Positions 7,252-20,156 of a stretch of DNA of 33,430 nt are shown here, in pieces. Positions within the stretch are counted from its first letter, which is position 1. Every line of letters begins with the position of its first letter. The notes beneath the pieces are model-generated. The model ran no database searches and was not told where the DNA came from. It saw only the letters and a program-made list of their open reading frames with translations. This DNA is from Phycisphaerales bacterium (lineage in GTDB: Bacteria > Planctomycetota > Phycisphaerae > UBA1845 > Fen-1342): contig JAGQOO010000008.1 in assembly GCA_020427345.1 (NCBI GenBank), forward strand, positions 1 through 33,430. Reading direction: 5' to 3'. The position numbers were made by a program, and so were the translations under genes.

Positions 7252-9579
7252 ATGCCCAAGCTGAACGAAGCCGCGGCCACAAATCTCGACGCCCTGCTAC
7301 AGGCGGTCAACTCGCCGCTCGACCCCACCGATCTCGGACGCCTTGCGCAACTGCACACCATGTTGCAGGATGTCGTTGGCGAGTTCGCGGCCGATTCGCC
7401 TCCGGCCAAACTCGGCGCGGGGGCTGTGCGCTTGTTGGAAGCGCTGATCCTGGATGAGGCGGCGGATGCGGCCTCCGGCATGCAGGCGATCCCCGAGGCG
7501 ATCATCGCCCTGCATAAGGCCGGGAACGACGATATCAGCGCCTGCGATGCAGCGCTGGCGAAAGTCACTGGGGCGATGACGGGCGAAGTGCCGACTGCCG
7601 CCAATGCTCCCGCTCCACAACCTCAACCAGTGACGCCGCCTGCCGCGACCGCCGCAAAGTCAACGGCGTTTACGCCAGAACCAGTCCCTGAACCCAGACT
7701 CGAAGCGCCAACGCCGCCTGCGCCCGCCAAGGCGCCCGCGCCGGCAGATGAAGCCTACGTCGCCGAGCCGCTGATCGTCGATCTCAATGAGCAGGAGCAC
7801 TTGCAGGGCTTCATCGACGAGAGCGCCGAGCACATGGACGCGATTGAAGTGGCCCTGCTCGGCGTGGAGCAGAACCCGGCGGATGCCGACCAGATCAACG
7901 AGTTGTTCCGGCCGTTCCACACCATCAAGGGCATCGCCGGTTTCCTTAATCTGCGCGACATCAATCGCCTGACGCACGAAGTCGAGACGATCCTTGATAT
8001 GGCCCGGAAGCATGAGTTGAAGCTGACCGCCGGCCATATTGACCTGATTTTCGCGGCGATCGACGTGTTGAAGGACCAGATCGGCCGACTGGCGCACTTC
8101 CTGACCGCTCCGACCGACAGTCCGGTGCCGCAACCGGTGATCGTGGACATCATGGCTCGACTGCGTAAGGCGCAGCGCGGCGAAGTGAATGGTGGAGGTC
8201 GCTCCACGGCCGCTGCTGATGCGCCGACGGCAGCCGGCCCAGCCCCCAATCCGCCCTCAGCGCAGACGGCGGGCAAGGCGGACTCGGGCGCGGCCAAGGA
8301 AGAAGGTGGTGACAACGCGGCCCGCGGCGTCGACAACTCCATTCGCGTGGATACGCGCAAGCTGGACGCGCTGGTCGACGCAGTCGGCGAGCTCGTCATC
8401 GCGCAGACGATGGTGAATCTGTCTGAGCGCGTGCGAGTTGATGAGAAGCTCAGCCGCGATGTATCGCAGGTCACGAAGATCGTCCGCGACATTCAGGAAA
8501 CGGCGCTGGCGATGCGCATGGTGCCGATCGGATCGACTTTCCAGAAAATGCGCCGTCTCGTCCGCGATGTCGCCAAGAAGGCGGGCAAGGAAGTTGACCT
8601 GCAGATTAACGGCGAAGAGACCGAACTCGACAAGACGGTGGTTCAGCAGATTTCGGACCCGCTGGTGCACATGGTGCGCAACGCCATCGATCACGGCCTT
8701 GAACCGCCGAACGAGCGTGAGTCGGGCGGAAAGGCACGCGCGGGAAAGGTGCGTCTGAACGCCTTCCATCAAGGTGACAGCATTACGATTCAGATCGCCG
8801 ATGACGGTCGCGGTCTTGATCGCGACAAGCTGATCAAGAAGGCGATCGAGCGGGGCATGATCAGCCCGGAAGACGAACTCACCGACCAGCAGGCGTACAT
8901 GCTGATTATGGGGGCCGGATTCTCCACCGCTGAACAAATCACCGACATTTCGGGACGCGGCGTCGGTATGGACGTTGTCCGCCGGAACATCGAGGCCCTG
9001 CGCGGCAAGATCGAGATTCAAAGCAACAAGGGCTCCGGCACGACGTTCAACATTCGCCTGCCGCTGACACTCGCGATCATCGACGGCATGCTCGTGCGGC
9101 TCGGCGACCAGCGGCTGATCATCCCCACGATTTCGATCGAGCAGTCGTTGCGGCCGTCGCAGATTTCAAGCGTGCAGCGGCGCGGCGAGATGATCAAGGT
9201 GCGCGGCGAACTCGTGCCGCTGATTCAACTCGGGCAGATTTTCGGCTTCGCCGAACGCATCGATCCGTGCGACGCGCTGGTCGTCATTGTTCAGGCTGAA
9301 AGCGGCCGCATCGGCGTGGTTGTCGAGGAACTGATCGGGCAGCAGCAAGTCGTGATCAAGACGCTGGGCGATCGTTTCAAGAGCGTCCAGGGCATCTCGG
9401 GCGCCGCCATCCTGGGCGATGGTCGCATCGGACTGATTGTCGAGCCGTCGGGGTTGCTCAAGCTGCACACGCAGAGCAACGCGCCGCTGTTGAGTGACGC
9501 GAACACGCCTCACGAAAAACCGCAACCGGAAGACCCGCAGGAATCCATCGTAGACATGACACTGGAGACCATAGTATGA
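7252..9579 (+). CDS. cheA: Chemotaxis-type histidine kinase CheA with extra N-terminal helical domain
   Basis: The 775-residue kinase autophosphorylates on a His in its Hpt domain and feeds response regulators. Domain order: residues 1-110 are a helical region without a phospho-His motif; 115-170 a Pro/Ala linker; 180-305 the Hpt domain with FHTIKGIAGFLNL (His223); 305-362 a second linker; 364-430 the dimerisation helices (LDALVDAVGELVIAQ); 470-610 the ATPase with N-box HMVRNAIDHGLE and G-boxes DDGRGLD and GRGVGMD; and about 615-750 the CheW-like domain. No P2 (CheY/CheB-binding) domain stands out between Hpt and the dimerisation helices. The gene overlaps cheW by 4 bp. No receptor, cheY, cheR or cheB is in the window, so its input and output are unknown. 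Confidence 0.93.
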   Translation: MPKLNEAAATNLDALLQAVNSPLDPTDLGRLAQLHTMLQDVVGEFAADSPPAKLGAGAVRLLEALILDEAADAASGMQAIPEAIIALHKAGNDDISACDAALAKVTGAMTGEVPTAANAPAPQPQPVTPPAATAAKSTAFTPEPVPEPRLEAPTPPAPAKAPAPADEAYVAEPLIVDLNEQEHLQGFIDESAEHMDAIEVALLGVEQNPADADQINELFRPFHTIKGIAGFLNLRDINRLTHEVETILDMARKHELKLTAGHIDLIFAAIDVLKDQIGRLAHFLTAPTDSPVPQPVIVDIMARLRKAQRGEVNGGGRSTAAADAPTAAGPAPNPPSAQTAGKADSGAAKEEGGDNAARGVDNSIRVDTRKLDALVDAVGELVIAQTMVNLSERVRVDEKLSRDVSQVTKIVRDIQETALAMRMVPIGSTFQKMRRLVRDVAKKAGKEVDLQINGEETELDKTVVQQISDPLVHMVRNAIDHGLEPPNERESGGKARAGKVRLNAFHQGDSITIQIADDGRGLDRDKLIKKAIERGMISPEDELTDQQAYMLIMGAGFSTAEQITDISGRGVGMDVVRRNIEALRGKIEIQSNKGSGTTFNIRLPLTLAIIDGMLVRLGDQRLIIPTISIEQSLRPSQISSVQRRGEMIKVRGELVPLIQLGQIFGFAERIDPCDALVVIVQAESGRIGVVVEELIGQQQVVIKTLGDRFKSVQGISGAAILGDGRIGLIVEPSGLLKLHTQSNAPLLSDANTPHEKPQPEDPQESIVDMTLETIV

Positions 9580-10070
9580 CCGCCGTCGCCACCGCCCCCA
9601 CCATCAGCAGTTCCGCCGAACTGGGCGGCAAGTATCTGACGTTCAACTTGGATCAGGAAGAGTACGGCGTTGAAATCCTGAAAGTGCGCGAGATCATCGG
9701 CATGATGGACATCACCAGCGTGCCGCAGATGCCGGCGTTCATCAAAGGCGTCATTAATTTGCGCGGCAAGGTCATCCCGGTCGTCGACCTGCGCCTGAAA
9801 TTCGGTCTCGACCAGGCGGAATACAACGACCAGACCTGCACGATCGTCGTCGATGTCGGCGCCCAGATCGGCGTGATCGTCGACACGGTGCAGGAAGTGC
9901 TCGACATCGCCGACGAGCAGATCGAGCCGCCACCGCCGATGTCGGGGGCCGTGGATACGCGCTTCATCCTCGGCATGGGTAAGGTAAAGGACGACGTCAA
10001 GATCCTGCTCGATATCGACAAGGTGCTGGCGGTTGAGGAACTCGGCCAGATCGGCGACAGCCCGGCCTGA
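9576..10070 (+). CDS. cheW: Chemotaxis coupling protein CheW
   Basis: The 164-residue adaptor couples chemoreceptors to CheA. The CheW fold is visible throughout: KYLTFNLDQEEYGVEILKV, REIIGMMDITSVPQMPAFIK, GVINLRGKVIPVVDLRLKFG, then IGVIVDTVQEVLDI and the last strand RFILGMGKVKDDVKILLDID. A short Ala/Ser-rich N-terminal tail precedes the fold. It overlaps cheA by 4 bp (ATGA), so the pair is translationally coupled and its product is the obvious partner of this CheA. Confidence 0.95.
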   Translation: MTAVATAPTISSSAELGGKYLTFNLDQEEYGVEILKVREIIGMMDITSVPQMPAFIKGVINLRGKVIPVVDLRLKFGLDQAEYNDQTCTIVVDVGAQIGVIVDTVQEVLDIADEQIEPPPPMSGAVDTRFILGMGKVKDDVKILLDIDKVLAVEELGQIGDSPA

Positions 10071-10111
10071 TCGGACTTGCCCGCCACGCGGGTCGGCGTG
10101 AGAATCGCCGT

Positions 10112-10474
10112 ATGCGCGTGCGACTGTCGAAGACATTCACATTCGAGGCGGCGCACTTCCTGCCCACCTTCCCGGAAGGGCATAAGTGTCGCCGCCTTCA
10201 CGGTCATAGTTTTCGCGTCGATGTGGTCGTCGCCGGCGAGATCGATCCAGCCGTCGGCTATCTGGTCGACTATGGCGCAATCAAGGCAGCCTGCGAGCCG
10301 ATCCGCGTTCAACTCGACCACCACTGCCTGAACGAAGTCCCCGGCCTTGAGAACCCCACCGCCGAGATGATCGCCGCGTGGATATGGGCCCGGCTCAAAC
10401 CCGGCCTGCCGTTGCTGGCCGAAGTGATCGTTCACGAAACATGCACCAGCCGGTGCGAGTATCGCGGCGAATGA
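10112..10474 (+). CDS. queD: 6-carboxy-5,6,7,8-tetrahydropterin synthase (QueD/PTPS family)
   Basis: The 120-residue enzyme converts dihydroneopterin triphosphate to 6-carboxytetrahydropterin in the queuosine/7-deazaguanine pathway. Zinc-binding His15 (FEAAHFL) and His30/His32 (CRRLHGHS), the catalytic Cys26 just before them, the Asp/His pair in LDHHCLNE, and the terminal HETCTSRCEYRG all match the family. The normal length is about 120. It starts 41 bp after cheW, has no functional link to it, and is followed by a strong terminator. Confidence 0.93.
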   Translation: MRVRLSKTFTFEAAHFLPTFPEGHKCRRLHGHSFRVDVVVAGEIDPAVGYLVDYGAIKAACEPIRVQLDHHCLNEVPGLENPTAEMIAAWIWARLKPGLPLLAEVIVHETCTSRCEYRGE

Positions 10475-10510: not shown

Positions 10511-10564
10511 ACAGCCACTGGAACCGCGGCGCCCGCGCGGCCACTCCGCGAATGGCTGTTTTTT
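10511..10564 (+). terminator. Rho-independent terminator after queD
   Basis: ACAGCCA (10511-10517) pairs perfectly with TGGCTGT (10553-10559), enclosing a GC-rich inner hairpin (CCGCG...CGCGG), and the stem runs into six T residues at 10559-10564. It lies 37 bp past the queD stop and 38 bp before the next start, so it separates queD from the eight-gene cluster that begins at 10603. Confidence 0.75.
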
Positions 10565-10602: not shown

Positions 10603-11010
10603 ATGGAAGCCTCCGGCGGCATGTTGAGCCGAATCAGCGAAAAGGTCATCGCGTGGATCGCGTTCGGGCTGCTCGTGTTGCTCGGCGTGACGATCTACCA
10701 GATGCCGGCGGAAACGAAATCCGCGATCTGGAGCGGACTCTGGCGCACGATCGCGTTTATCGGGATCAGCGCGGCGTGGCCGTGGCAGGCGAGACTGTAC
10801 ATCCGCCGCGTGCTGGAAGTCGGCGAAAACTGGGCCGGGGCGGCGTTGATCGCGGCGTTGACGCTCGGGAACGTGATCATCGGCGTCGTGCTGATGACGG
10901 TTTGGCCGGGCAGCGGCTGGGCCTGGATGGCGGCAATCGGGGCGATCGCGCTAACCGGCACATACAATTATCTGGTGACATCGTACCTGGCGGATATGAG
11001 CGGACATTGA
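10603..11010 (+). CDS. Four-TM membrane protein heading the ESCRT-like cluster
   Basis: I do not recognise a family. The 135-residue protein has four predicted membrane segments: residues about 14-34, 42-61, 78-99 and 103-126, the last containing TGTYNYLVTSYLADM. Short loops contain a few charged residues and there is no enzymatic motif. The start is ATG 10603, with ATG 10621 (MLSRISEK) as an alternative. Neither has a strong ribosome binding site. It follows the queD terminator and precedes the kinase gene by 20 bp, so it is likely the first gene of the cluster and could supply a membrane anchor or sensor for the kinase. Its role is inferred from position only. Confidence 0.7.
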   Translation: MEASGGMLSRISEKVIAWIAFGLLVLLGVTIYQMPAETKSAIWSGLWRTIAFIGISAAWPWQARLYIRRVLEVGENWAGAALIAALTLGNVIIGVVLMTVWPGSGWAWMAAIGAIALTGTYNYLVTSYLADMSGH

Positions 11011-11030
11011 ACGACGCGGCGAAGACCAAC

Positions 11031-12083
11031 ATGAGCGGAACCTACCAACCCGGAACCCGCGTAAGCGAGTTCGTGCTCGAGGCGCCGATCGGCCTCGGGT
11101 CGTTCGGCGAGGTTTGGTCTGCGCGACATCACATGTGGGAGAACGAGCGCGTCGCGATTAAGCTTCCGACGACGCCGGAGTATGTGCGTTACCTCCAGCG
11201 CGAAGGCGGCTTCGCGCACGGGCTGCGGCATCCGAACATCGTGCGCGTCATCGGAGTCGACCCATACGCCGAGATTCCGTACCTCGTGATGGAGCTCGTG
11301 AACGGGCCGTCGCTGCGGCGGGCGATCACCGACGCGCCGACCGGCTTGCCGATTCCGGTGTGCATCACGATCGCCCGCGGCGTCTTGTCCGCAATGGAAG
11401 CCGCCCACACCGCGAACATTCTGCATCGCGATCTGAAGCCGAGCAACGTGCTGCTGAACCTGAACGGTACGCCGCTCGCGGAGCTTGAGGAGGATCAGGT
11501 CAAAGTCGTGGACTTCGGCCTGGGCCTCGGACAGCCGGACATGATGCGGTCGATTGCGCAGTCGATGTCGCTCGAGCGCGACAACAAGCTCGTCGGGACG
11601 CTGGCTTATCTGGCTCCCGAGCTGCGTGACGGCGCCGTCGCTTGGGACGCGCGCGGCGATCTGTACGCCATCGGCGTGATGCTGTTCGAAATGCTGACCG
11701 GCGAACGGCCCGTCGGTGCCGAACTGCCGAGCACCGTTCGCGCGGAAACGCCGGCCGCGCTCGATGAGGTGTTCCGCCGGCTTTACGCCCGGCAGGACCG
11801 GCGATACGAATCCGCGAAAGCCGCGCTGGACGACCTGACGCAGCGGACAACGCGACGCGCGATCCCGCCGCCCCCGCCGCTGCCGCCGGAGTTCACGAGC
11901 CAGGGCGGGAAGCGCTGTCCGAGTTGCAGCGCGATCGCGAATCGGGACGACCAGTTCTGTATCAAGTGCGGTTACCAGTTGACGCCGCAGGTGAGGCGCT
12001 GCCCGTCGTGCCAGGCGTTTCCGAGCCCGCGTGACCGATTCTGCATCTTTTGTGGCGCCCAGCTGAGCGGGGTCCTGACATGA
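11031..12083 (+). CDS. Hanks-type Ser/Thr protein kinase with two C-terminal zinc ribbons
   Basis: The protein has 350 residues. The kinase domain occupies 1-275, with the glycine loop GLGSFG (21-26), VAIK with Lys44, the catalytic loop HRDLKPSN (132-139), DFG (161-163) and APE (195-197), so it should be active. A Pro-rich linker (280-286) leads to two zinc ribbons with CPSC/CIKCG (Cys296, 299, 310, 313) and CPSC/CIFCG (Cys324, 327, 338, 341). There is no TM segment. The paired ribbons probably bind partners. ATG 11031 is chosen because it directly precedes the kinase fold (an open frame extends upstream through the previous gene). The stop overlaps the next start by 4 bp, and that product also carries a zinc ribbon of the same type. 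Confidence 0.9.
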   Translation: MSGTYQPGTRVSEFVLEAPIGLGSFGEVWSARHHMWENERVAIKLPTTPEYVRYLQREGGFAHGLRHPNIVRVIGVDPYAEIPYLVMELVNGPSLRRAITDAPTGLPIPVCITIARGVLSAMEAAHTANILHRDLKPSNVLLNLNGTPLAELEEDQVKVVDFGLGLGQPDMMRSIAQSMSLERDNKLVGTLAYLAPELRDGAVAWDARGDLYAIGVMLFEMLTGERPVGAELPSTVRAETPAALDEVFRRLYARQDRRYESAKAALDDLTQRTTRRAIPPPPPLPPEFTSQGGKRCPSCSAIANRDDQFCIKCGYQLTPQVRRCPSCQAFPSPRDRFCIFCGAQLSGVLT

Positions 12084-12358
12084 TGATGGCTGAATTGGGC
12101 ATAGCCGCGGTCGCTTTTGTCGCCCTGATCGGGTTCTTCGGCTTCTTCCTCGTCATCATGACGCTGATGGTGAAGCTGGTATGGCGCGCCATGCGCGGTA
12201 TGTTTTCGCTCGTGGATCCGCATTCCACCCGCGATGAGCGGGCAATCGGATGCCCCCATGTCGGGTGCGGGCATCGCAATGTAAAGGGCGCGCGATTCTG
12301 CGCCCGATGCGGTCGAGCAATCCGCGCCACCTCGGGAAACACGGATGTCTATGGCTGA
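12080..12358 (+). CDS. Small TM protein with a C-terminal zinc ribbon
   Basis: The 92-residue protein has one long hydrophobic helix (residues about 4-33), a short basic/charged linker, and a zinc ribbon with Cys58, Cys63, Cys74 and Cys77 (CPHVGCGHRN ... CARCG). The ATG at 12080 overlaps the kinase stop (ATGA), and its end overlaps the next gene by 14 bp, so it is translationally coupled on both sides. The ribbon resembles those of the kinase. It may dock kinase or another cluster member at the membrane, but this is inference. The frame is open a little further upstream, inside the kinase gene, without a better start. Confidence 0.75.
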   Translation: MMMAELGIAAVAFVALIGFFGFFLVIMTLMVKLVWRAMRGMFSLVDPHSTRDERAIGCPHVGCGHRNVKGARFCARCGRAIRATSGNTDVYG

Positions 12359-13808
12359 CGCCGATCGGCTGCGCGACTTTGAGGAGCTTTTCCTCGGCCA
12401 GATTGAGGCCAAGGCCCGCGGCCTGACCGGCAGGTCGGGCGTGGCGGATCGCGTCTACTTCGAGCCGACGCGCGAAGGCCCGGACGCCGTTCGCGCCGAA
12501 CTCGGCCGCCTGCGCGTGTATGACCGTGACGCCATGGATCGCGTCGCCGGAACGCGCAGCATAGAGATGCGGTTTCAGCGAAAGCTGCTCGGGCTGATCC
12601 CGCGCACGGTTTCGCTTGTACGCGTGCGAACGCTGATGCCGATCGAAGCGATGATCCGCGGCGAGGAGCCGAAACCGGCCACTCGAGCCGATGTGCTCGT
12701 CGCTTTAGCGCACTACGAGCTGATCCCCACCCGCCTGCGCCCGACCGGCGTGATCCTCGCCAGCCCGACCGGGTTTACTGAGGAAGCGCAGAATCTCGTT
12801 GAGTCCACGAATCACCTCAGCCTGGTGCTGATCGGCGGGCGAGCGGATGGCGGTTGGGACATCAACAAGCCGAAACGCCTGAAGGGCACGAAGTGGGAAA
12901 AGCTCTTTGAACTGGAAACTCAGCCGGAGCGATTGAAGCGATTGCTGTATCATCTGGATCAGGCCGGGGTTGAAGTCGACTCCCGGGGGTTGTCCGTGTC
13001 GGAATTGTCGCAGCGCTTGGGGCTGGAGCGGGCCGAGACGGAACGCCTCGTGCGGCAGGCGTGCAACGTGCGACCGCGGCTGATGACCGTTTCCCACAAC
13101 GGCGAGACGCATCTGGCGCGCTCGCCGCTGGCGGAAGAAGGCGATTCAATGAGCTGGTGGAGCCGAATTCGAAAACTGCTGGGCTTCAAGCCGACCGTCG
13201 CCGAGCGGGTGCGCGATTTGAGCGCGCAGCGCGTGCGGATCGAACAGCAGCGCGTGGAGTACGATTCAAAAATCGACCGCCTTGAGGCGGATGAGCGCGG
13301 CGCGCTCGAGCAGGGCGCGGCGGCGAAGTCCACCGCCGAGAAGAAGCAGGTCGCCGGTCGGCTGATGCGCTTGCGGCGTGAATTGCAGCGACATCGCGCT
13401 CAAGCGCAGTTGCTCACGCGCCAGATCGACGTGATCGGCACGCATATCCACCACCTGACGCTAAAGGAACAGGGCCGCCGCCTCGAGTTGCCGACCTCAG
13501 AAGAGTTGACACGCGAAGCGGCTGAGGCCGAACAGATCATGACCGAAATCTCCGCCAACGCTGAGTTGGCGGGCTCGATCGAAGTGACCGGCGAAACGCT
13601 GGGCATGGCGGACGAGGAAGCCGCGATCTTCGCGGAATTTGACGAAATCGCCGAAGGCGCGCCCGCCGCGAAGAAACAAGCCGAAGCTCGAGACGCGGCG
13701 CCGCCGGAACAGATCATCGAGCGCGCGGGAGAGGCGATCTCGGGCCGGTCGGCGGAAAACCCGCCGCGAACGGATGATCGTTCTCGGGCGCGGCCGGAGG
13801 CGAGCTAA
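12345..13808 (+). CDS. Winged-helix plus Snf7/ESCRT-III-like coiled-coil protein (CHMP7-like order)
   Basis: The protein has 487 residues in three parts. Residues 1-185 are an unrecognised alpha/beta region. Residues about 190-262 look like a winged helix (LSVSELSQRLGLERAETE, then a wing LMTVSHNGETHLA). Residues 268-440 look like an ESCRT-III core: a basic amphipathic start WWSRIRKLLGFKP, a long charged helical hairpin (about 285-375), a gap, then an acidic helix EELTREAAEAEQIMTEIS and a terminal acidic block EEAAIFAEFDEIAE. This spacing mirrors Snf7/CHMP4, and the winged-helix-then-Snf7 order mirrors CHMP7. The tail (441-487) is disordered and Pro/Arg-rich. The start is ATG 12345 (ATG 12351 is possible). 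The call is from pattern reading, not alignment. Confidence 0.6.
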   Translation: MSMADADRLRDFEELFLGQIEAKARGLTGRSGVADRVYFEPTREGPDAVRAELGRLRVYDRDAMDRVAGTRSIEMRFQRKLLGLIPRTVSLVRVRTLMPIEAMIRGEEPKPATRADVLVALAHYELIPTRLRPTGVILASPTGFTEEAQNLVESTNHLSLVLIGGRADGGWDINKPKRLKGTKWEKLFELETQPERLKRLLYHLDQAGVEVDSRGLSVSELSQRLGLERAETERLVRQACNVRPRLMTVSHNGETHLARSPLAEEGDSMSWWSRIRKLLGFKPTVAERVRDLSAQRVRIEQQRVEYDSKIDRLEADERGALEQGAAAKSTAEKKQVAGRLMRLRRELQRHRAQAQLLTRQIDVIGTHIHHLTLKEQGRRLELPTSEELTREAAEAEQIMTEISANAELAGSIEVTGETLGMADEEAAIFAEFDEIAEGAPAAKKQAEARDAAPPEQIIERAGEAISGRSAENPPRTDDRSRARPEAS

Positions 13809-13814
13809 GTCGGC

Positions 13815-14420
13815 ATGAACTTCTTCGACTGGCTGACAACCAAGCGCAAGACGCTCTCCACGATGAGCGTCGCTGAATTGCGCGCGCAGGAAATGCTGCT
13901 GGAGAATGATCGCAATCGTATGCTGCGTCGCGTCGAAAAACTTGCGACGGACAAGCAAGGCGTGGTTGAGCGCGGCGCCAAGGAAAAGACGCCAGAAATG
14001 CGGCGCACTTTCGCGCAGCAATTCGACCTGCTGCACACCGAGCAAATGATGCTCAGCCGCCATCTGAACATACGCAGCAAGGAACTGTTGACCGTCTCGC
14101 GGTTGCGGATGCTGCGCGAGATGTCGCGGCAGTCGGTCGCCGGGCCGGGACTCGTCGCGATCGGCGAATCCGACCTCGCCGCGATTGAGCGTTTGATTGA
14201 GAACAACGAGATCACGGCCGAGTTGTATTCTGAACGCCTCGATGAAATCCTGAAGATCGGTCACGCGGCGGATACTGAGGCGTCGGCGGGCGTGTCTCCG
14301 GCGGCCCAGGAGTTGATGCGCATCTGGAGCGACATGGACGCGGGTTTGATCAAGGACACGGCGACCGCGGTCGACGAAGCCGAGCGCCGCGTCCGAGAGC
14401 GCGAGCGCGAAGGCGCCTAG
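13815..14420 (+). CDS. Helical ESCRT-III-like protein, second of three
   Basis: This 201-residue, almost wholly helical, highly charged protein starts with a short hydrophobic/basic segment (MNFFDWLTTKRKTLS) like the membrane-inserting N-termini of Snf7-family proteins. Two long helices follow (about 18-55 and 60-106), separated by a short turn near residue 57. After a Gly/Pro break come an acidic helix (ESDLAAIERLIENNEITAEL, then YSERLDEILKI) and a final helix AAQELMRIWSDMDAG, which could be a MIT-interacting segment. It begins 6 bp after the winged-helix gene. The ESCRT-III assignment is weaker than for its two neighbours, and a plain coiled-coil adaptor is the alternative. Confidence 0.55.
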   Translation: MNFFDWLTTKRKTLSTMSVAELRAQEMLLENDRNRMLRRVEKLATDKQGVVERGAKEKTPEMRRTFAQQFDLLHTEQMMLSRHLNIRSKELLTVSRLRMLREMSRQSVAGPGLVAIGESDLAAIERLIENNEITAELYSERLDEILKIGHAADTEASAGVSPAAQELMRIWSDMDAGLIKDTATAVDEAERRVREREREGA

Positions 14421-14472
14421 CGAGCGACGAAATGCGCCGGTGAGACGCCGGTCACACTAGAGGACGGGGCCG

Positions 14473-15081
14473 ATGGGACTGTTCAAATCCAAGGAAGAAC
14501 GCCGCATCGAGCGCGACATGAAAATCCGCCAGGGGATTCGGCGGATTGAAAAGGCGATCGCCGAACAGAACAAGTTTCAGGACGAGTTTGTTAAGAACGC
14601 GCGCCAGGCCAAGGCGATCGGTGATCAGTCGTCGTACCAGTTCATTCGCAACTCGCTGAAAAAAACGGCGACAATCAAGAAGCTGCTCGAACGCCAGCAC
14701 CTCGCCGTAAAGAACGCGCTGCTGATCAAGCGTCAGGCCGAGGCCGCCGCCGACTTCGGTGAGGCGATGAAACTGATGGCGTCCGAAGTCAGCCGGCTGT
14801 ACGGCGATGCCGATCTGACGAAAACGCAGATGGATTGGGAGAAGGCCATCGCCCAGTCTCAGTCCATGGAGGAGCGGATGGAGATGTTCCTCGAGTCGAT
14901 CGAGAGCTCGGCCGCGCAGGACCTGAGCCTGTCGTCGAAGGAGGCGATTACCGACGATGAGATCGACCGCCTGATTGCCGCCGAGGAACAAGTGGAGCAG
15001 GCGCGCGACAGCGCGCAGATGTCCGCGCTGCGGGCTGAACTGGCGGACTTGAAAGGTGAAGCCCAGAAAGAGGGCAAATAG
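14473..15081 (+). CDS. Snf7/ESCRT-III-like protein with MIM1-like C-terminus
   Basis: The 202-residue protein begins MGLFKSKEERRIERDMKIRQ, close in form to CHMP proteins that open with a short LFG/LFK-type motif and a basic helix 1. A basic helical hairpin follows (about 10-110, with the turn near AKAIGDQSSYQ), then a less basic helix (DWEKAIAQSQSMEERMEMFL), then an acidic tail (about 160-180), giving the basic-core/acidic-tail polarity of ESCRT-III. At the end, LRAELADLK (Leu186, Leu190, Leu193, Lys194) fits the MIM1 pattern LxxRLxxLK except that Arg is Glu. MIM1 binds MIT domains, and the next gene encodes a MIT-like AAA ATPase. GAGGACGGGG precedes the start. PspA/Vipp1 also belong to this superfamily, but their longer helical hairpin and amphipathic start are not evident. 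Confidence 0.65.
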   Translation: MGLFKSKEERRIERDMKIRQGIRRIEKAIAEQNKFQDEFVKNARQAKAIGDQSSYQFIRNSLKKTATIKKLLERQHLAVKNALLIKRQAEAAADFGEAMKLMASEVSRLYGDADLTKTQMDWEKAIAQSQSMEERMEMFLESIESSAAQDLSLSSKEAITDDEIDRLIAAEEQVEQARDSAQMSALRAELADLKGEAQKEGK

Positions 15082-15099
15082 GCCGCTTCTTCGATCACG

Positions 15100-16215
15100 A
15101 TGCCGACATTCGCCACGTTCCAACGCCTGAAGGACAAGGGTATCGCCGCCTATCGCAACGGCGACCCGATTTCCGCGCGCCCCTATCTGATCCAGGCGGC
15201 GGAGTGCATGCTCGACATCGCCGCCTCCAACAACAACCCCGCCGAGCGCGAGCAGCAGGAACACTACGCCGCCGAGCTGATCGACCTCGCGAAACGATGT
15301 GAGCGCGCGGGCAAGCAAAGCGGCGGCGTCAAGACGCGCGACCGTGTCGGCAGTGACGACGACAATGGGCCCGATGCGTCCGACTGGATCGTGCGCGAAA
15401 AGCCGACCATCCATTTCGACGACATTGCCGGACTGGACGACGTGAAGGAAGAGATCTTCCTGAAGATGATCTATCCCTTCAATCATCCCGAACTCGCCGG
15501 GCGCTACGGCATCGATGTCGGCGGCGGTCTGCTGATGTACGGCCCCCCGGGCACAGGCAAGACGATGATCGCCAAAGCCGTCGCCTGCGAGCTGGACGCG
15601 ACAATGTTCGTCATCAGCCCGGCCCAGATCATGAGCAAATGGGTCGGCGAGGCCGAGCAGAACATCAAGAAACTGTTCGACGCCGCGAAGCAGGAGGCCA
15701 AGGCCGTTATATTCATGGATGAGGTGGAGGCGCTGGTCCCCGCTCGCCGCGACAGCCAGTCCAACGTTATGCAGCGCGTCGTGCCGCAGATATTGCAGGA
15801 AATCGAGGGGTTCGATCGCAAGGCCGATCGCGCTTTGCTGTTTCTCGGCGCGACCAACGAGCCGTGGGCGCTTGATCCGGCGATGACGCGCCCGGGTCGA
15901 CTCGACGAAAAAACGCATGTGCCACTGCCCGACCCCGAAGCCCGCTTCAAGCTCTTCGAAATCTACCTCGGCAAGCGGCCGATGGACCCCGATGTCGACT
16001 TCGCCCGCCTCGTCGAGGAAACCGCGGGCTATAGCGGCGCCGATATCAAAGCCGTCGCGCACCGTGCGGCAACTCGCCCGTTTTTGGAATCGGTTTCCGG
16101 CGGCGCCCCGCGTAACATCTCACTGGCGGACGTCTTGACGGCGATCGTCGAAACGCCGCCGTCCGTCAGCCCGTCGCAGGCGGAGCGCTACACGGCGTGG
16201 GCCCGCGGCGGATAG
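15100..16215 (+). CDS. Vps4-like AAA ATPase with N-terminal MIT-like domain
   Basis: The protein has 371 residues. Residues 5-70 form three predicted helices (QRLKDKGIAAYRNGD, ARPYLIQAAECMLDIA, HYAAELIDLAKRCERA), matching MIT-domain spacing. A linker leads to one AAA module: EKPTIHFDDIAGLDDVKEEI, Walker A GPPGTGKT (about 148-155), a pore-loop region SKWVGEAE, Walker B VIFMDEVEAL (about 203-212), sensor-1 GATNEPWALD, and arginine fingers in TRPGRLDE. The GATNxPWxLD and SKWxGE signatures are those of the Vps4/katanin/spastin (meiotic) clade rather than FtsH. There is no TM helix and no peptidase domain. Vps4 disassembles ESCRT-III polymers by pulling MIM-bearing tails, and the two upstream genes encode candidate substrates. 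A FtsH-less bacterial AAA of unknown function is the fallback. Confidence 0.85.
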   Translation: MPTFATFQRLKDKGIAAYRNGDPISARPYLIQAAECMLDIAASNNNPAEREQQEHYAAELIDLAKRCERAGKQSGGVKTRDRVGSDDDNGPDASDWIVREKPTIHFDDIAGLDDVKEEIFLKMIYPFNHPELAGRYGIDVGGGLLMYGPPGTGKTMIAKAVACELDATMFVISPAQIMSKWVGEAEQNIKKLFDAAKQEAKAVIFMDEVEALVPARRDSQSNVMQRVVPQILQEIEGFDRKADRALLFLGATNEPWALDPAMTRPGRLDEKTHVPLPDPEARFKLFEIYLGKRPMDPDVDFARLVEETAGYSGADIKAVAHRAATRPFLESVSGGAPRNISLADVLTAIVETPPSVSPSQAERYTAWARGG

Positions 16216-16232
16216 CGACGCCGGGAGGTCCG

Positions 16233-17984
16233 ATGCCGCGCGACATCCTGCAACAACTGCAAGACGCCGATCTATTGGCGATTCGGATTTCGGGCGGCGA
16301 GTGGCCGCGCGGATTGCTGAGTTCCACGCTGATTCCCGACGCGTGGATGGGGCTGGTCGAAACGCGCGACGGTCGTCGCAAGTTCGTGCCCGCCGGCGAA
16401 GACCCACAACCCGATCGCGACGCGACGCTACTGCTTGCCCGCAGCCGTCGGCTGACGCTGCCGCTCTCCGCGAGCGACTTGCTGTCGGCTGATAATGATG
16501 AATTCACGATCGACGGCGAGTTGCTTGTCAACTGGGAGGCGGACGCCGTCCAACTCGCGGCGCTGCTGCGACGTATGCCGGCTTCGGGTGAGCTGACCCA
16601 ACAGGCGCTGTATGACGCGATGATGACCAACGGAGCCGCCGAGACGCTGCGTCGATTCTGTCAGGAAGCAAGCAGCGCGGCTTTGTCGCAAGATGACATT
16701 CGCGTTTCGCTCGAAGCGGCATTGCGCGGCGGACTCGCGTCGTTCCTATTTGAGTACGGACTGTCGTTTGATCGACTCGCGCGGGTCACGCTGGTCAGCC
16801 GGAGCTTCAGCCGGCGTCAGATCGAAAGACGCGCAGGCGAGCGCGAGTTGGAGCGCATCGCGGCGCGCGAAATGCTGCAGCAAGCGGCGCTGTCAGCTGC
16901 GCAGAAACGCCTCGATCTCGTCGGCGGGTTGCTCGAACGGCTGCGCGGCGCGGCGGGATCCGACGCGCAGGGCTGGCGCGGGCTGCTGCCGACACTGACG
17001 CCGACCGAGCGCGGGCAGTTGCTCGAAAACCTGTGGCGCGTAACGCCGAATCGCCGCGTTGCGCAGGCCATTTTGATCGTCGCGGGGGGTGAGCTGCACT
17101 GGATCGATCCGAACCAACCGACGCGGATCACGCGCACATTCGCGGCGCCGGAAGACCTTGGGCCGCTGCGAAGCGTGCGGTATTGCGCGGAACGCGCGTG
17201 GATTCTGCTCGGAGCGGCGTGCCGTGTGTGGATCATCGGAGCGGAATCGGGCGCCGTTGTACATCGGTTTGAGGCGGCGTGCGAGGAGACGCCGCGCACC
17301 GGCTTCAACGATGCGCTGATCGCCGGCGATTGGATCTATGCGACGCACTCGCAGCTCGGCTGCGTGCGATGGTCGCTGACGCGCGATGCGCACGAGGCGC
17401 TATTGACGCCCGCGCATGGGGCGCCGCGCTCGGTCCGCGCACTCGCGCTCTCGGAAGACGGTCGCGTGCTGTTTGCCGCGGATGATTGCGTAATGACCGT
17501 CGAGCCGGACGCGAGCGAGGCGCAGACGCTGACCTGCGCGGACAGCGTGGTCTTTTGCCTCGCGATTGACGGACAAACGCTCTACGCGGGAACCGCGGAC
17601 GGAGCGCTGCGCAAGGCCGAACTCGCATACCCGGAAACGTGGACCTCGATCGCCCGCATCCACGGCGCCATGGAGGCGATCGCGCTTCGGCGCTGGAGCG
17701 ACCTCATCGAACTGATTACACCCGCCAACGTGTCCGGCGCGCAGGCGGTCTATCCGCAGGAAAACGTCGTCACACGCCTGTTTGACACGCCGACGACCGT
17801 GCGGCGCGTCTGGGCGAGCGATGACTGCGTCGTCGCGCTCAGCGAACGGCGTGACCGGCTGTACGTGGCGACCGCGGGCGGAGCGCCGGACCTTGCGTGC
17901 GAGGCGCCGCTCTCGCGACTACTGGGGCGATCGATTCAGGACGTGTGCCTGGTGACCGCGACGCGCGAAGTGGAAACGGGTTAA
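16233..17984 (+). CDS. SPFH/band-7-like domain fused to a beta-propeller
   Basis: The protein has 583 residues. The first part (about 25-200) reads like a band-7 domain: GLLSSTLIPDAWMGLVETRD, FTIDGELLVNWE, then a helical run ending IRVSLEAALRGGLASFLFEY and GLSFDRLARVTLVS, equivalent to the SPFH strand that follows an ala-rich helix. A charged coiled coil (about 190-240) follows, as in flotillin-like proteins. Residues about 275-583 are repeated beta strands such as SVRALALSEDGRVLFAADD and FCLAIDGQTLYAGTADGALR, a WD40/PQQ-type propeller. No N-terminal TM segment is evident. ATG 16233 has a strong GGGAGG (16223-16228). It lies 17 bp after the ATPase gene. The SPFH call is by eye and moderate; the propeller call is firmer. 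Confidence 0.6.
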   Translation: MPRDILQQLQDADLLAIRISGGEWPRGLLSSTLIPDAWMGLVETRDGRRKFVPAGEDPQPDRDATLLLARSRRLTLPLSASDLLSADNDEFTIDGELLVNWEADAVQLAALLRRMPASGELTQQALYDAMMTNGAAETLRRFCQEASSAALSQDDIRVSLEAALRGGLASFLFEYGLSFDRLARVTLVSRSFSRRQIERRAGERELERIAAREMLQQAALSAAQKRLDLVGGLLERLRGAAGSDAQGWRGLLPTLTPTERGQLLENLWRVTPNRRVAQAILIVAGGELHWIDPNQPTRITRTFAAPEDLGPLRSVRYCAERAWILLGAACRVWIIGAESGAVVHRFEAACEETPRTGFNDALIAGDWIYATHSQLGCVRWSLTRDAHEALLTPAHGAPRSVRALALSEDGRVLFAADDCVMTVEPDASEAQTLTCADSVVFCLAIDGQTLYAGTADGALRKAELAYPETWTSIARIHGAMEAIALRRWSDLIELITPANVSGAQAVYPQENVVTRLFDTPTTVRRVWASDDCVVALSERRDRLYVATAGGAPDLACEAPLSRLLGRSIQDVCLVTATREVETG

Positions 17985-19282
17985 CCGCGATTCGACGCGT
18001 ACTCTTCGACACCGCGCGCTTCGGCGGCGTTGACCCACCAATCGCCGGATGGGAAGACGCGTTGCGCCGGACGACCGAGACGAATCGAGCCGCGCGGCGT
18101 TTGAGGCAATCGAGCGCGCCGGGCGCGCTCCTCACGCACCGCCTTCAACGCGGTCGATAATCGTCGCTCCAGCAATTCAAGTTCCTCAGGACTCGCGCCA
18201 GGGCTGACATGCGACTGGGTCGCGAGACGTGGGGTGGCAATATGTTGGGTGGTACGGACGTCTCGCCCACCTGTTGCGCCTTGGGTGGTACGGGCGTCTC
18301 GCCCGTCTGTGCCTTGGGTGGTACGGGCGTCTCGCCCGTCCTGGATGTTACGCCCCCCGCGCGACCGACCACCGCCCCGCCGCTCGGTTCGCGTCGGCAC
18401 AATCTGTCCAAACTCCGCCTTTTCGCGCGCGACGAGGATCGGCCTTGGCGGATCGATCCAACCCTTCTTGGCGCCCGACGAATCGTCGAACTGAATCGCG
18501 GTTTCCCATCGCTTCGGAGCCTCGATGGCCGGGATCGCAAATCCGGATGCCGCCGCCCCGGCCTTCACATCGCGGGCGAGCACGACCGACCGCCGCTCCG
18601 CCATCGCCTCCAAAAGGGCATTGTCGCACACATGATCCAACGCACGGGGAACACCGCCGCTGATTGTGTGCGCGAACTCTGCCGCTTCGTCATTGAATCG
18701 AACCCCGCGCGCCCCGGCGGCGCCGAGACGAAACGAGATGTAACCGGCGGCTTCTGCCGGGCAAAACGGCTCGAGCCGCGTTCGTCGACGAATCCGCGAC
18801 ACCAGCCGCGGTTCGATGGCTTCCGATCCTGACAGCAGCACAAGCGTCGTGTGGGCCGCGGGCCGCGCCAGAAGAGCGAGCACCGAATCCCAGAAGGCCT
18901 TCGGGACGAGATGCGCGTCGTCTACGATCAATAGCGAGCGGGAGCCGATCGGCTGCGCGTCGCGCCATTCCGCAAAGGCGATCCGCCGCCAATCTGCGCC
19001 ATCCGGACGCGCCGCGCAAACATCGACACGTGCGTTTGAGCAGTCTGCGCCACACAAGATCGCCGTATGCGCGCTTCGCGCCGCCTCAACCGCCAGCAAC
19101 TCCGCCAGAAAGGTCTTGCCGAGCCCGGCGCCACCGACGACCAGAACACCCGGCCAGCCGGCATGGAACGCCAGGCGCACCGTCGCGAGCGCTTCCGCGT
19201 GAGATTCGGCCTCAAAAAACGCGTCGGGTCGACCGGGGCCAAACGGGGCCATGTGGCAGCCGAGGGTCGCGTACGGGTTCAT
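17981..19282 (-). CDS. ExeA/GspA-like AAA ATPase (exosortase-EPS-associated type)
   Basis: The 433-residue ATPase has Walker A GGAGLGKT (50-57), Walker B LLIVDDAH (117-124) and the sensor-like LVLLSGSE, on the ExeA/AAA_22 fold. ExeA-like ATPases of this kind are regularly encoded with polysaccharide export and exosortase (PEP-CTERM) loci, and here the divergent neighbour is an EPS export lipoprotein. The C-terminal part (about 300-433) is a low-complexity tail that includes a REP-like tandem repeat at 18245-18341. I start it at ATG 19282, which has AAGGAG 7 bases upstream and begins MNPYATLGCHMAPFG. The longer open frame to 19684 is not coding. Its stop shares TTAA with the convergent SPFH gene. 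Confidence 0.83.
   Translation of the reverse strand: MNPYATLGCHMAPFGPGRPDAFFEAESHAEALATVRLAFHAGWPGVLVVGGAGLGKTFLAELLAVEAARSAHTAILCGADCSNARVDVCAARPDGADWRRIAFAEWRDAQPIGSRSLLIVDDAHLVPKAFWDSVLALLARPAAHTTLVLLSGSEAIEPRLVSRIRRRTRLEPFCPAEAAGYISFRLGAAGARGVRFNDEAAEFAHTISGGVPRALDHVCDNALLEAMAERRSVVLARDVKAGAAASGFAIPAIEAPKRWETAIQFDDSSGAKKGWIDPPRPILVAREKAEFGQIVPTRTERRGGGRSRGGRNIQDGRDARTTQGTDGRDARTTQGATGGRDVRTTQHIATPRLATQSHVSPGASPEELELLERRLSTALKAVREERARRARLPQTPRGSIRLGRPAQRVFPSGDWWVNAAEARGVEEYASNRG
18245..18341. repeat. Three tandem REP-like units inside the ExeA-like gene
   Basis: Three units of about 28-36 bp begin at 18245, 18281 and 18314. Each starts TTGGGTGGTAC and contains a short palindrome with the CGTCTCG core (ACGGGCG, TCT, CGCCCGT in units 2 and 3; unit 1 is degenerate). 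On the minus strand they are translated as GRDARTTQG-type repeats (about residues 314-346) in the low-complexity tail, without breaking the frame. Units of this type are usually extragenic, so this looks like a repeat insertion tolerated by a disordered region. The units are not regular enough to be a CRISPR array. Confidence 0.75.
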
Positions 19283-19457
19283 ACTGCGCTCCTTGCGCGT
19301 GGGCCGCCGATGCCGCGCTGGCGGCTGGGCGGAAACCGTGTTTTCATCGGACCTCGATCGGCTGGCGATAAATAACGGATTCGCGCCCGCCCAAGCCGCT
19401 TGTTTCACACGCCGATCAATCCGGCCGATACGCCCGAAGACATTACGGGACGCGCGA

Positions 19458-20156
19458 ATGACGAACCGCATAGTTACAATCTGCCTCACGAGCCTTTCGG
19501 CCCTGTTGCTCGTCGGTTGCGCCGCGCGCAACCCGACGCCGGCGGCGACCCAATCGCCGGGTCGTTCGGAAATGACGCCTACGCGTTCTGCCGAGCGTGT
19601 GTTTCCCGGCGATGTTGTTCTGATCCACGCGCCGCCGGCGACTGAGATCGACCAGACGCGGCACAGCGTGGCGCCGGACGGCATGCTGCGGCTGCGATTG
19701 ATTGGAGCGATCGAAGCGGCGGGCCTGACGCCGGAACAGATCGCAGCGACGATTCAGTCGCGACTATCTCGCTATTACAAAGAGCCGCGCGTTGTCGTGG
19801 AGGTTGTCGAGCGCGCCGGTCGCAACGTTCTGATTGTGGGCGAAGTGCGCCATCCCGGTCGCCACCGGATCGGCGAGGACGCGACAATTCTGTCCACGAT
19901 TAGCGCCGCCGGACTAATGCCGACGGCGCGACGCGACGCGATACGGTTGGTGCGCCGCGACGAAGATGAGCGCCCGCAAACCTGGCGTTTCGATCTGAAT
20001 GAGATTGTTCGAAGCGGCGGCGCTGGAGACATTGCGCTCCTGCCCGGCGACGTGATCGAGGCGCCTCCGTCGGCCCTGGCCGAGTTCGGACGCGGCTGCG
20101 CAATGCTGTTTGGCGGAGCCGACAACGGCGAATCTGACACGGAGCCGACGCCATGA
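19458..20156 (+). CDS. Polysaccharide export lipoprotein (Wza/poly_export family)
   Basis: The 232-residue protein starts MTNRIVTICLTSLSALLLVG, and its lipobox LVGC is followed by AARNP, so it is an envelope lipoprotein. The conserved poly_export stretch is visible: VFPGDVVLIHAPPATEID, VAPDGMLRLRLIGAIEAAGL, TPEQIAATIQSRLSRYYKEP and RVVVEVVER, followed by an SLBB-like repeat (NVLIVGEVRHPGRHRIGEDA). Proteins of this family form the outer-membrane exit of EPS export. Its start ATG 19458 is diverged from the ExeA-like gene across a 175-bp gap that includes an AT-rich GATAAATAAC patch, a possible promoter region. An earlier frame start at 19251 is inside the noncoding gap. The stop overlaps the next gene by 4 bp. 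Confidence 0.88.
   Translation: MTNRIVTICLTSLSALLLVGCAARNPTPAATQSPGRSEMTPTRSAERVFPGDVVLIHAPPATEIDQTRHSVAPDGMLRLRLIGAIEAAGLTPEQIAATIQSRLSRYYKEPRVVVEVVERAGRNVLIVGEVRHPGRHRIGEDATILSTISAAGLMPTARRDAIRLVRRDEDERPQTWRFDLNEIVRSGGAGDIALLPGDVIEAPPSALAEFGRGCAMLFGGADNGESDTEPTP

Follow-up and report, generated by a model that had tools for sequence, protein, structure and literature searches.

Whether a bacterium may encode a machine of the type formed by the ESCRT-III polymer and the Vps4 ATPase (ESCRT, endosomal sorting complex required for transport) is the question raised by a locus of a Phycisphaerales bacterium (draft assembly GCA_020427345.1, contig JAGQOO010000008.1), of which positions 1 to 33,430 were analyzed as a whole and are referred to here as the window. 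It has been stated that only archaea and eukaryotes have ESCRT systems that include ESCRT-III together with Vps4 (Makarova et al. 2024, PMC10936438). The locus consists of eight open reading frames (ORFs), g1 to g8, all present on the + strand at positions 10603–17984; the ORF list confirmed that they overlap or are spaced by 52 bp or less, as had been claimed in an original prediction made from the letters of the DNA. This planctomycete locus probably codes for a membrane-remodelling machine of the ESCRT-III/Vps4 type, with a rough probability of 0.8. This answer draws on the computed fold and homology of g6, the homologies of the C-terminus of g4 and of g5, the placement of g7 and its MIT-like N-terminus, and the linkage and co-occurrence of the genes. 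The original prediction had interpreted the locus in the same way, and this interpretation was supported because an ESCRT-III core was recognized in g6 (by AlphaFold2, Foldseek and Pfam Snf7), in the C-terminus of g4 (by topology and profiles) and in g5 (by homology to g4), the AAA ATPase g7 was placed by trees with Vps4, CdvC, katanin and spastin and showed a MIT-like N-terminus, and the gene order was found to be conserved.

Concerning g6 (14473–15081, + strand, 202 aa), its AlphaFold2 model, built with 34 homologues, contains helices at residues 7–49, 52–109, 115–152 and 161–200, with a mean predicted local distance difference test (pLDDT) of 70. In the comparison of this model with the PDB by Foldseek, the first 13 matches all belonged to the ESCRT-III superfamily, with CHMP2A and CHMP3 in the lead at a probability of 1.00. 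Snf7 was matched by six of the 34 homologues (best E 0.0011, under the cut-off) and was the Pfam family with the most matches among them, tied with one weaker family. When the Snf7 hidden Markov model (HMM) was run over 15 whole genomes, all the matches covering at least 145 of its 171 positions fell in the operon, g6 accounting for four of them and g4 for one. The alignment by hhalign of g6 to a CHMP1/2/3-type profile gave a probability of 90 and an E-value of 1.5e-6 over 157 columns, the eukaryotic ESCRT-III reference sequences of the hhalign comparisons being unverified, and controls with reversed profiles gave E-values of at least 0.1. Model and profiles together indicate that the predicted protein is probably an ESCRT-III subunit by fold and homology. 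Its C-terminal tail, ALRAELADLK, was read by eye with the generally known rule for the MIT-interacting motif 1 (MIM1): the spacing of the leucines is MIM1-like, but there is Glu where MIM1 has Arg. The consensus of the tails in the g6 alignment is LRAELxxLK, while the family f10 ends in LESEIAKEL instead.

At this point a different assignment has to be weighed, namely a PspA/Vipp1-like envelope-stress system in which the membrane would be coated and repaired by divergent PspA relatives, with the AAA ATPase as a separate chaperone recruited there. PspA and Vipp1 belong to the same superfamily and do appear among the fold matches of g6, and PspA has known SPFH partners (PMC8581546). However, the PspA and Vipp1 structures rank lower in that Foldseek list than those of CHMP and Snf7, which fit g6 better, and PspA_IM30 (PF04012) matched none of g4, g5 and g6 in the 15 genomes; the real PspA genes, present in two of these genomes, are located away from the operon. 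Furthermore, an ATPase of the Vps4 clade, with its MIT-like domain, accompanies g6 in 38 of the 42 genomes having either of them. So, the PspA-type system is considered unlikely, and filing the operon as PspA was rejected on the lack of PspA_IM30 matches at g4–g6. Membrane repair, taken as a task, would be compatible with an ESCRT-III/Vps4 machine.

The second candidate ESCRT-III protein is g4 (12345–13808, + strand, 487 aa), in which a winged helix and a Snf7-like domain are fused. Its AlphaFold2 model, built with 76 homologues, reached a pLDDT of 87.7 and a predicted template modelling score of 0.77. The N-terminal part (residues 1–268, 12345–13148), mostly with pLDDT above 90, is a folded alpha/beta region with a winged helix at about residues 208–260. 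The C-terminal part (residues 269–487, 13149–13808) holds Snf7/B-type-like helices at 271–279, 285–326, 330–379, 386–415, 417–436 and 442–451, in a layout made of an amphipathic-type helix, a long helical hairpin, shorter helices and a Pro-rich disordered tail whose end is conserved. In the Foldseek list of full-length g4, the winged-helix proteins are on top and an ESCRT-II chain (3cuq_A) is found at rank 44; the ESCRT-III assignment of the C-terminus rests thus on topology and profiles. By hhalign, this C-terminus aligned in register with a CHMP4/Snf7/CHMP6-type profile over 156 columns (probability 79.5, E 1.5e-5), and the g4 of a relative (G089) matched positions 2–166 of the Snf7 HMM. These alignments argue for homology of the g4 C-terminus to the ESCRT-III family. 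By the same kind of comparison, g5 (13815–14420, + strand, 201 aa), a second Snf7-like helical protein, is predicted to be homologous to that family through g4, as it aligned with the g4 C-terminus over 155 columns with a probability of 96 and an E-value of 2.5e-9.

The hhalign comparison of g6 with g5 or g4 was not significant, so that the common ancestry of the three proteins rests on the link of each one to ESCRT-III. The assignment of g6 as A-type-like, and of g4 and g5 as B-type-like, is suggestive only, and the preference was unstable against single reference sequences (g5 was best with Vps2). A profile match of g4 to CHMP4b in the PDB was single, weak and not usable. Pfam scans of the g5 and g4 families returned scattered coiled-coil noise only, and nothing useful came from the viral library.

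The ATPase of the locus is g7 (15100–16215, + strand, 371 aa). It displays the motifs GPPGTGKT and IFMDE, with the Walker motifs intact, and the pore loop SKWVGEAEQN. Its AAA domain with the Vps4_C-like C-terminus occupies 15364–16215 (AAA, E 1.2e-38). Two maximum-likelihood trees with different outgroups, small taxon sampling and, in the second one, some unverified references placed this domain in the clade of Vps4, CdvC, spastin and katanin (96.9 SH-aLRT/99 UFBoot, and 97/100 with the wider outgroups), a clade that in this single-domain phylogeny excludes Cdc48 D1 and D2, VAT, PAN, NSF and FtsH. On these trees, g7 is assigned to the Vps4 clade, as had been originally predicted. Vps4_C (PF09336) was found in all of 15 g7 homologues (best E 1.1e-5), with the g7 of the window scoring 19.0 bits for a cut-off of 21.3. 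The top NCBIfam model for g7 was that of CdvC (221.5 bits over residues 55–368); the cut-off of the CdvC equivalog NF041006, 650 bits, was not reached, and since the score is far under it g7 is not filed as CdvC itself.

The N-terminal three-helix domain of g7 (residues 1–72, 15100–15315) had been described as MIT-like, which held in part. The best PDB profile match of this region was 2mpk, a solved MIT domain (E 5.2e-4), while Pfam MIT did not rise above its cut-off at g7 and the direct match to Vps4-MIT was weak. This N-terminus aligned by hhalign with the N-terminal domain of a second ATPase, g7′ (probability 93, E 3.9e-7), whose own best match was the MIT domain of VPS4B at full length. 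TPR proteins also scored against the g7 N-terminus. In view of these profile matches, it is likely that this N-terminus is a MIT domain. The second MIT-like AAA ATPase, g7′, lies near g6 in other planctomycete classes (L114 7068–8261, L117 5928–7607, L122 1970–3217, L125 6028–7335, L128 6946–8214 and L133 9228–10481), and in the tree it groups with CdvC and the eukaryotic members, closer to them than g7 does; in the family f45 it is the sole ATPase at the locus. Inside the Vps4 clade, g7 is sister to bacterial TPR-AAA ATPases; the closest to it in the tree are four of planctomycete genomes (L231, L232, L233 and L234), which are similar to those Vps4-like proteins of bacteria that have been described with no Snf7. 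The strongest MIT match outside the operon in its own genome (C145, E 1.4e-5) corresponds, by eye, to a repeat-rich thioredoxin-like protein and was set aside.

Some of these data could also be read in another way, in which an AAA ATPase of the Cdc48/TPR type has the helical proteins as generic coiled-coil partners, for instance in the turnover of protein complexes, and the likeness to ESCRT is a convergence of long helices. Coiled coils draw weak matches, MIT and TPR helices resemble each other, the two-domain proteins Cdc48/p97 led the PDB scores of full-length g7, and TPR-AAA proteins are its closest relatives in the tree. On the other hand, a single superfamily supplied all the top 13 fold matches of g6, the profile alignments run in register over approximately 155 columns and are lost on profile reversal, and the single-domain phylogeny separates g7 from Cdc48 D1/D2, PAN and FtsH. 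Convergence is thus regarded as very unlikely.

The conservation of the gene order, a check raised by the original prediction, was clear. Of 80 named contigs, 44 held a database locus with sufficient flank on both sides; among these 44 loci, 28 had the exact order g1-g2-g3-g4-g5-g6-g7-g8, and most of the others differed by a single gene missing or unlinked, so the clustering of g1–g8 is far beyond chance. The eight-gene order was also seen in several families by tblastn and profile mapping, and the homologues have narrow length ranges (199–206 aa for g5 and 199–205 aa for g6 in complete genes, and 368–384 aa for g7). Relatives of g6 were found in 41 of 150 genomes of the class (one of them weak) and in 56 of 392 of the phylum. 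In the 150 class genomes, g6 occurred in 40 and g7 in 40, with both in 38, a single one in 4 and neither in 108, figures for co-occurrence that are inflated by shared descent. The association is nevertheless more than a neighbour effect because g6 and g7 co-occur even where they are unlinked. The operon is conserved in Phycisphaerae, and further classes of Planctomycetota have its core, with an altered arrangement (g4 ... g7′-g6-g7-g8-g1-g2) and longer g1 relatives; that the parts remain near each other after reshuffling implies that they travel together. In the Phycisphaerae family f10, g1–g6 are often together with g7 elsewhere.

The named relatives are labelled as Phycisphaerae or Planctomycetota, with rare exceptions. 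One record that carries the operon (L196) is a metagenome-assembled genome labelled Alphaproteobacteria, and this label is probably wrong. In another locus (L133, 10632–12966) the winged-helix part of g4 has a gene of its own, and three more helical proteins come after it, two of which are ESCRT-III-like by eye.

A number of results weigh against the interpretation as an ESCRT-III/Vps4 machine. In sequence, the proteins resemble known ESCRT-III only weakly: no Snf7 match in the HMM search of the 15 whole genomes was above the Pfam cut-off, no ESCRT protein was matched in the PDB by the sequence profiles of the g6 and g5 alignments, and g5 showed no direct ESCRT-III match, being linked only through g4. 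The best Foldseek E-values of g6 were only 0.005–0.1 (the lowest, 4.6e-3) for a model of moderate confidence, the Foldseek list of g4 is dominated by winged-helix matches, and the unverified state of the hhalign references has to be counted here too. As to the ATPase, its nearest relatives in the tree are the bacterial TPR-AAA ATPases, not CdvC, the profile similarity of its MIT region to Vps4-MIT was weak when compared directly (probability 9, E 0.004), and several Phycisphaerae have g7 away from the cluster.

The remaining genes of the operon encode possible partners. The first one, g1 (10603–11010, + strand), is a small membrane protein of 135 aa for which four transmembrane segments had been claimed, and hydropathy gave two clear ones. 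The kinase with two zinc ribbons that had been predicted was recovered in g2 (11031–12083, + strand, 350 aa), an intact Ser/Thr protein kinase (Pkinase, E 1.3e-34) with the catalytic motifs VAIK, HRDLKPSN and DFG and a C-terminal double zinc ribbon. Likewise, g3 (12080–12358, + strand, 92 aa) has, as expected, one transmembrane segment and, at its C-terminus, a zinc ribbon (Zn_Ribbon_1 matched at E 1.7e-4, short of the Pfam cut-off). The last gene, g8 (16233, or 16197, to 17984, + strand, 583 aa), agreed only partly with its description as an SPFH-propeller protein: WD40 was matched at E 0.007, with propeller-like repeats in the C-terminal region, while SPFH/Band_7 was not detectable in the g8 of the window itself, whose N-terminal region is taken as SPFH-like because Band_7 was matched by 4 of 16 g8 homologues (best E 5.5e-5) and was the Pfam family matched by the largest number of them. 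The likeness to archaeal ESCRT loci extends beyond the core pair, since the partners known there include a kinase as well as winged-helix, Zn-ribbon and SPFH proteins.

As for how the system could work, we infer a cycle in which the membrane proteins g1 and g3, together with the putative SPFH-propeller protein g8, would define a site on the cytoplasmic membrane, where the winged-helix ESCRT-III protein g4, together with g5, would seed a B-type-like filament. The A-type-like g6 would co-polymerise and alter the curvature of the filament, and the MIT-like domain of a g7 hexamer would grip the C-terminal tails of g6, perhaps also those of g4 or g5, to thread subunits out with ATP. The filament would thereby constrict, exchange subunits and be recycled, while the kinase g2 may regulate assembly.

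Concerning the task, a narrower proposal compatible with this mechanism is an FtsZ-independent division machine, functionally like the archaeal Cdv system (CdvB/CdvC). The Phycisphaerae divide in a way resembling binary fission without FtsZ, with the responsible protein unknown (PMC6952346), which counts for this proposal, as do the finding of a FtsZ/tubulin match in only 2 of the 150 class genomes and the top rank of CdvC among the NCBIfam models for g7. These two tubulin/FtsZ-family matches, in a class described as FtsZ-less, are located at C199:24732–25064 (G110) and C14:16530–17057 (G116). However, the operon is without division genes, and a strong g6 match is missing in 110 of the 150 genomes, nearly all of which are also without FtsZ; for this reason, the operon was rejected as a general replacement of FtsZ. 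The division role is accordingly doubtful, and membrane sculpting or repair is at least as plausible. To the same tentative degree, one may consider a complete, long-established bacterial ESCRT, with B-type-like g4/g5 and A-type-like g6 driven by the MIT-Vps4 ATPase, in charge of an essential scission such as FtsZ-independent division. The two-step ESCRT-III polymer is thought to originate in Asgard archaea (PMC11804906), and if that possibility were true it would also exist in bacteria, by ancient inheritance or by transfer.

Compared to the archaeal ESCRT/Cdv systems (PMC10936438), the locus shares the ESCRT-III-like proteins beside a Vps4-type ATPase with a MIT-like domain, and also the partners, which comprise a Ser/Thr kinase and winged-helix, Zn-ribbon and SPFH-like proteins; it differs in the bacterial host, in the score of g7 (221 versus 650 bits for the CdvC equivalog) and in the fusions of a winged helix to the Snf7-like domain in g4 and of the SPFH-like region to a beta-propeller in g8. 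With eukaryotic ESCRT-III/Vps4 it has in common the helix layout, the tentatively assigned A-type-like and B-type-like subunits, the CHMP7-like fusion of a winged helix with a Snf7-like domain, and the combination in g7 of a MIT-like domain with an AAA domain having a Vps4_C-like end (as in VPS4). Unlike the eukaryotic proteins, the sequences stay under the curated recognition cut-offs, g7 (371 aa) falls some 60 residues short of VPS4A (437 aa) and leaves no space where the beta-domain insertion of the eukaryotic protein could fit, and no ubiquitin, ESCRT-0 or ESCRT-I parts were seen in the operon. The bacterial PspA/Vipp1 proteins share the superfamily fold, and a SPFH partner is known in Bacillus, but PspA_IM30 gave no match here and PspA is not normally found with a MIT-Vps4. 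For bacterial Vps4-like ATPases with AAA domains of this kind, it has been reported that a TPR/6TM protein unrelated to snf7 had displaced it (Manfredi et al. 2024, PMC11237479), whereas here three ESCRT-III-like genes adjoin the ATPase. Because the known bacterial Vps4-like ATPases are without snf7, the combination of ESCRT-III and Vps4 in a bacterium appears to be new, no description of it having been found within openly licensed papers and a few preprints. The account of the origin of ESCRT would change if a conserved counterpart existed in a bacterial phylum that lacks FtsZ and has unusual membranes. The locus offers a defined gene set for probing the shaping, repair or division of membranes in planctomycetes, which is an open question (PMC6952346), and may provide a compact ESCRT system for reconstitution.

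With respect to the surroundings, a terminator had been proposed upstream of g1, at 10511–10564. The consensus scan, which admits only loops of 3–8, did not detect it; the letters there do read CAGCCA...TGGCTG followed by TTTTTT. The neighbours on both sides of the operon appear, by eye, unrelated to g1–g8. Upstream (window 7252–10474), genes like those of the chemotaxis proteins CheA and CheW and of 6-pyruvoyl-tetrahydropterin synthase were recognized by eye. Downstream, a convergent ORF (17981–19684, − strand) is ExeA-type ATPase-like by eye, with GRDARTTQ-like short segments that recur in it, and beyond this opposing ORF lie genes of exopolysaccharide type, also identified by eye.

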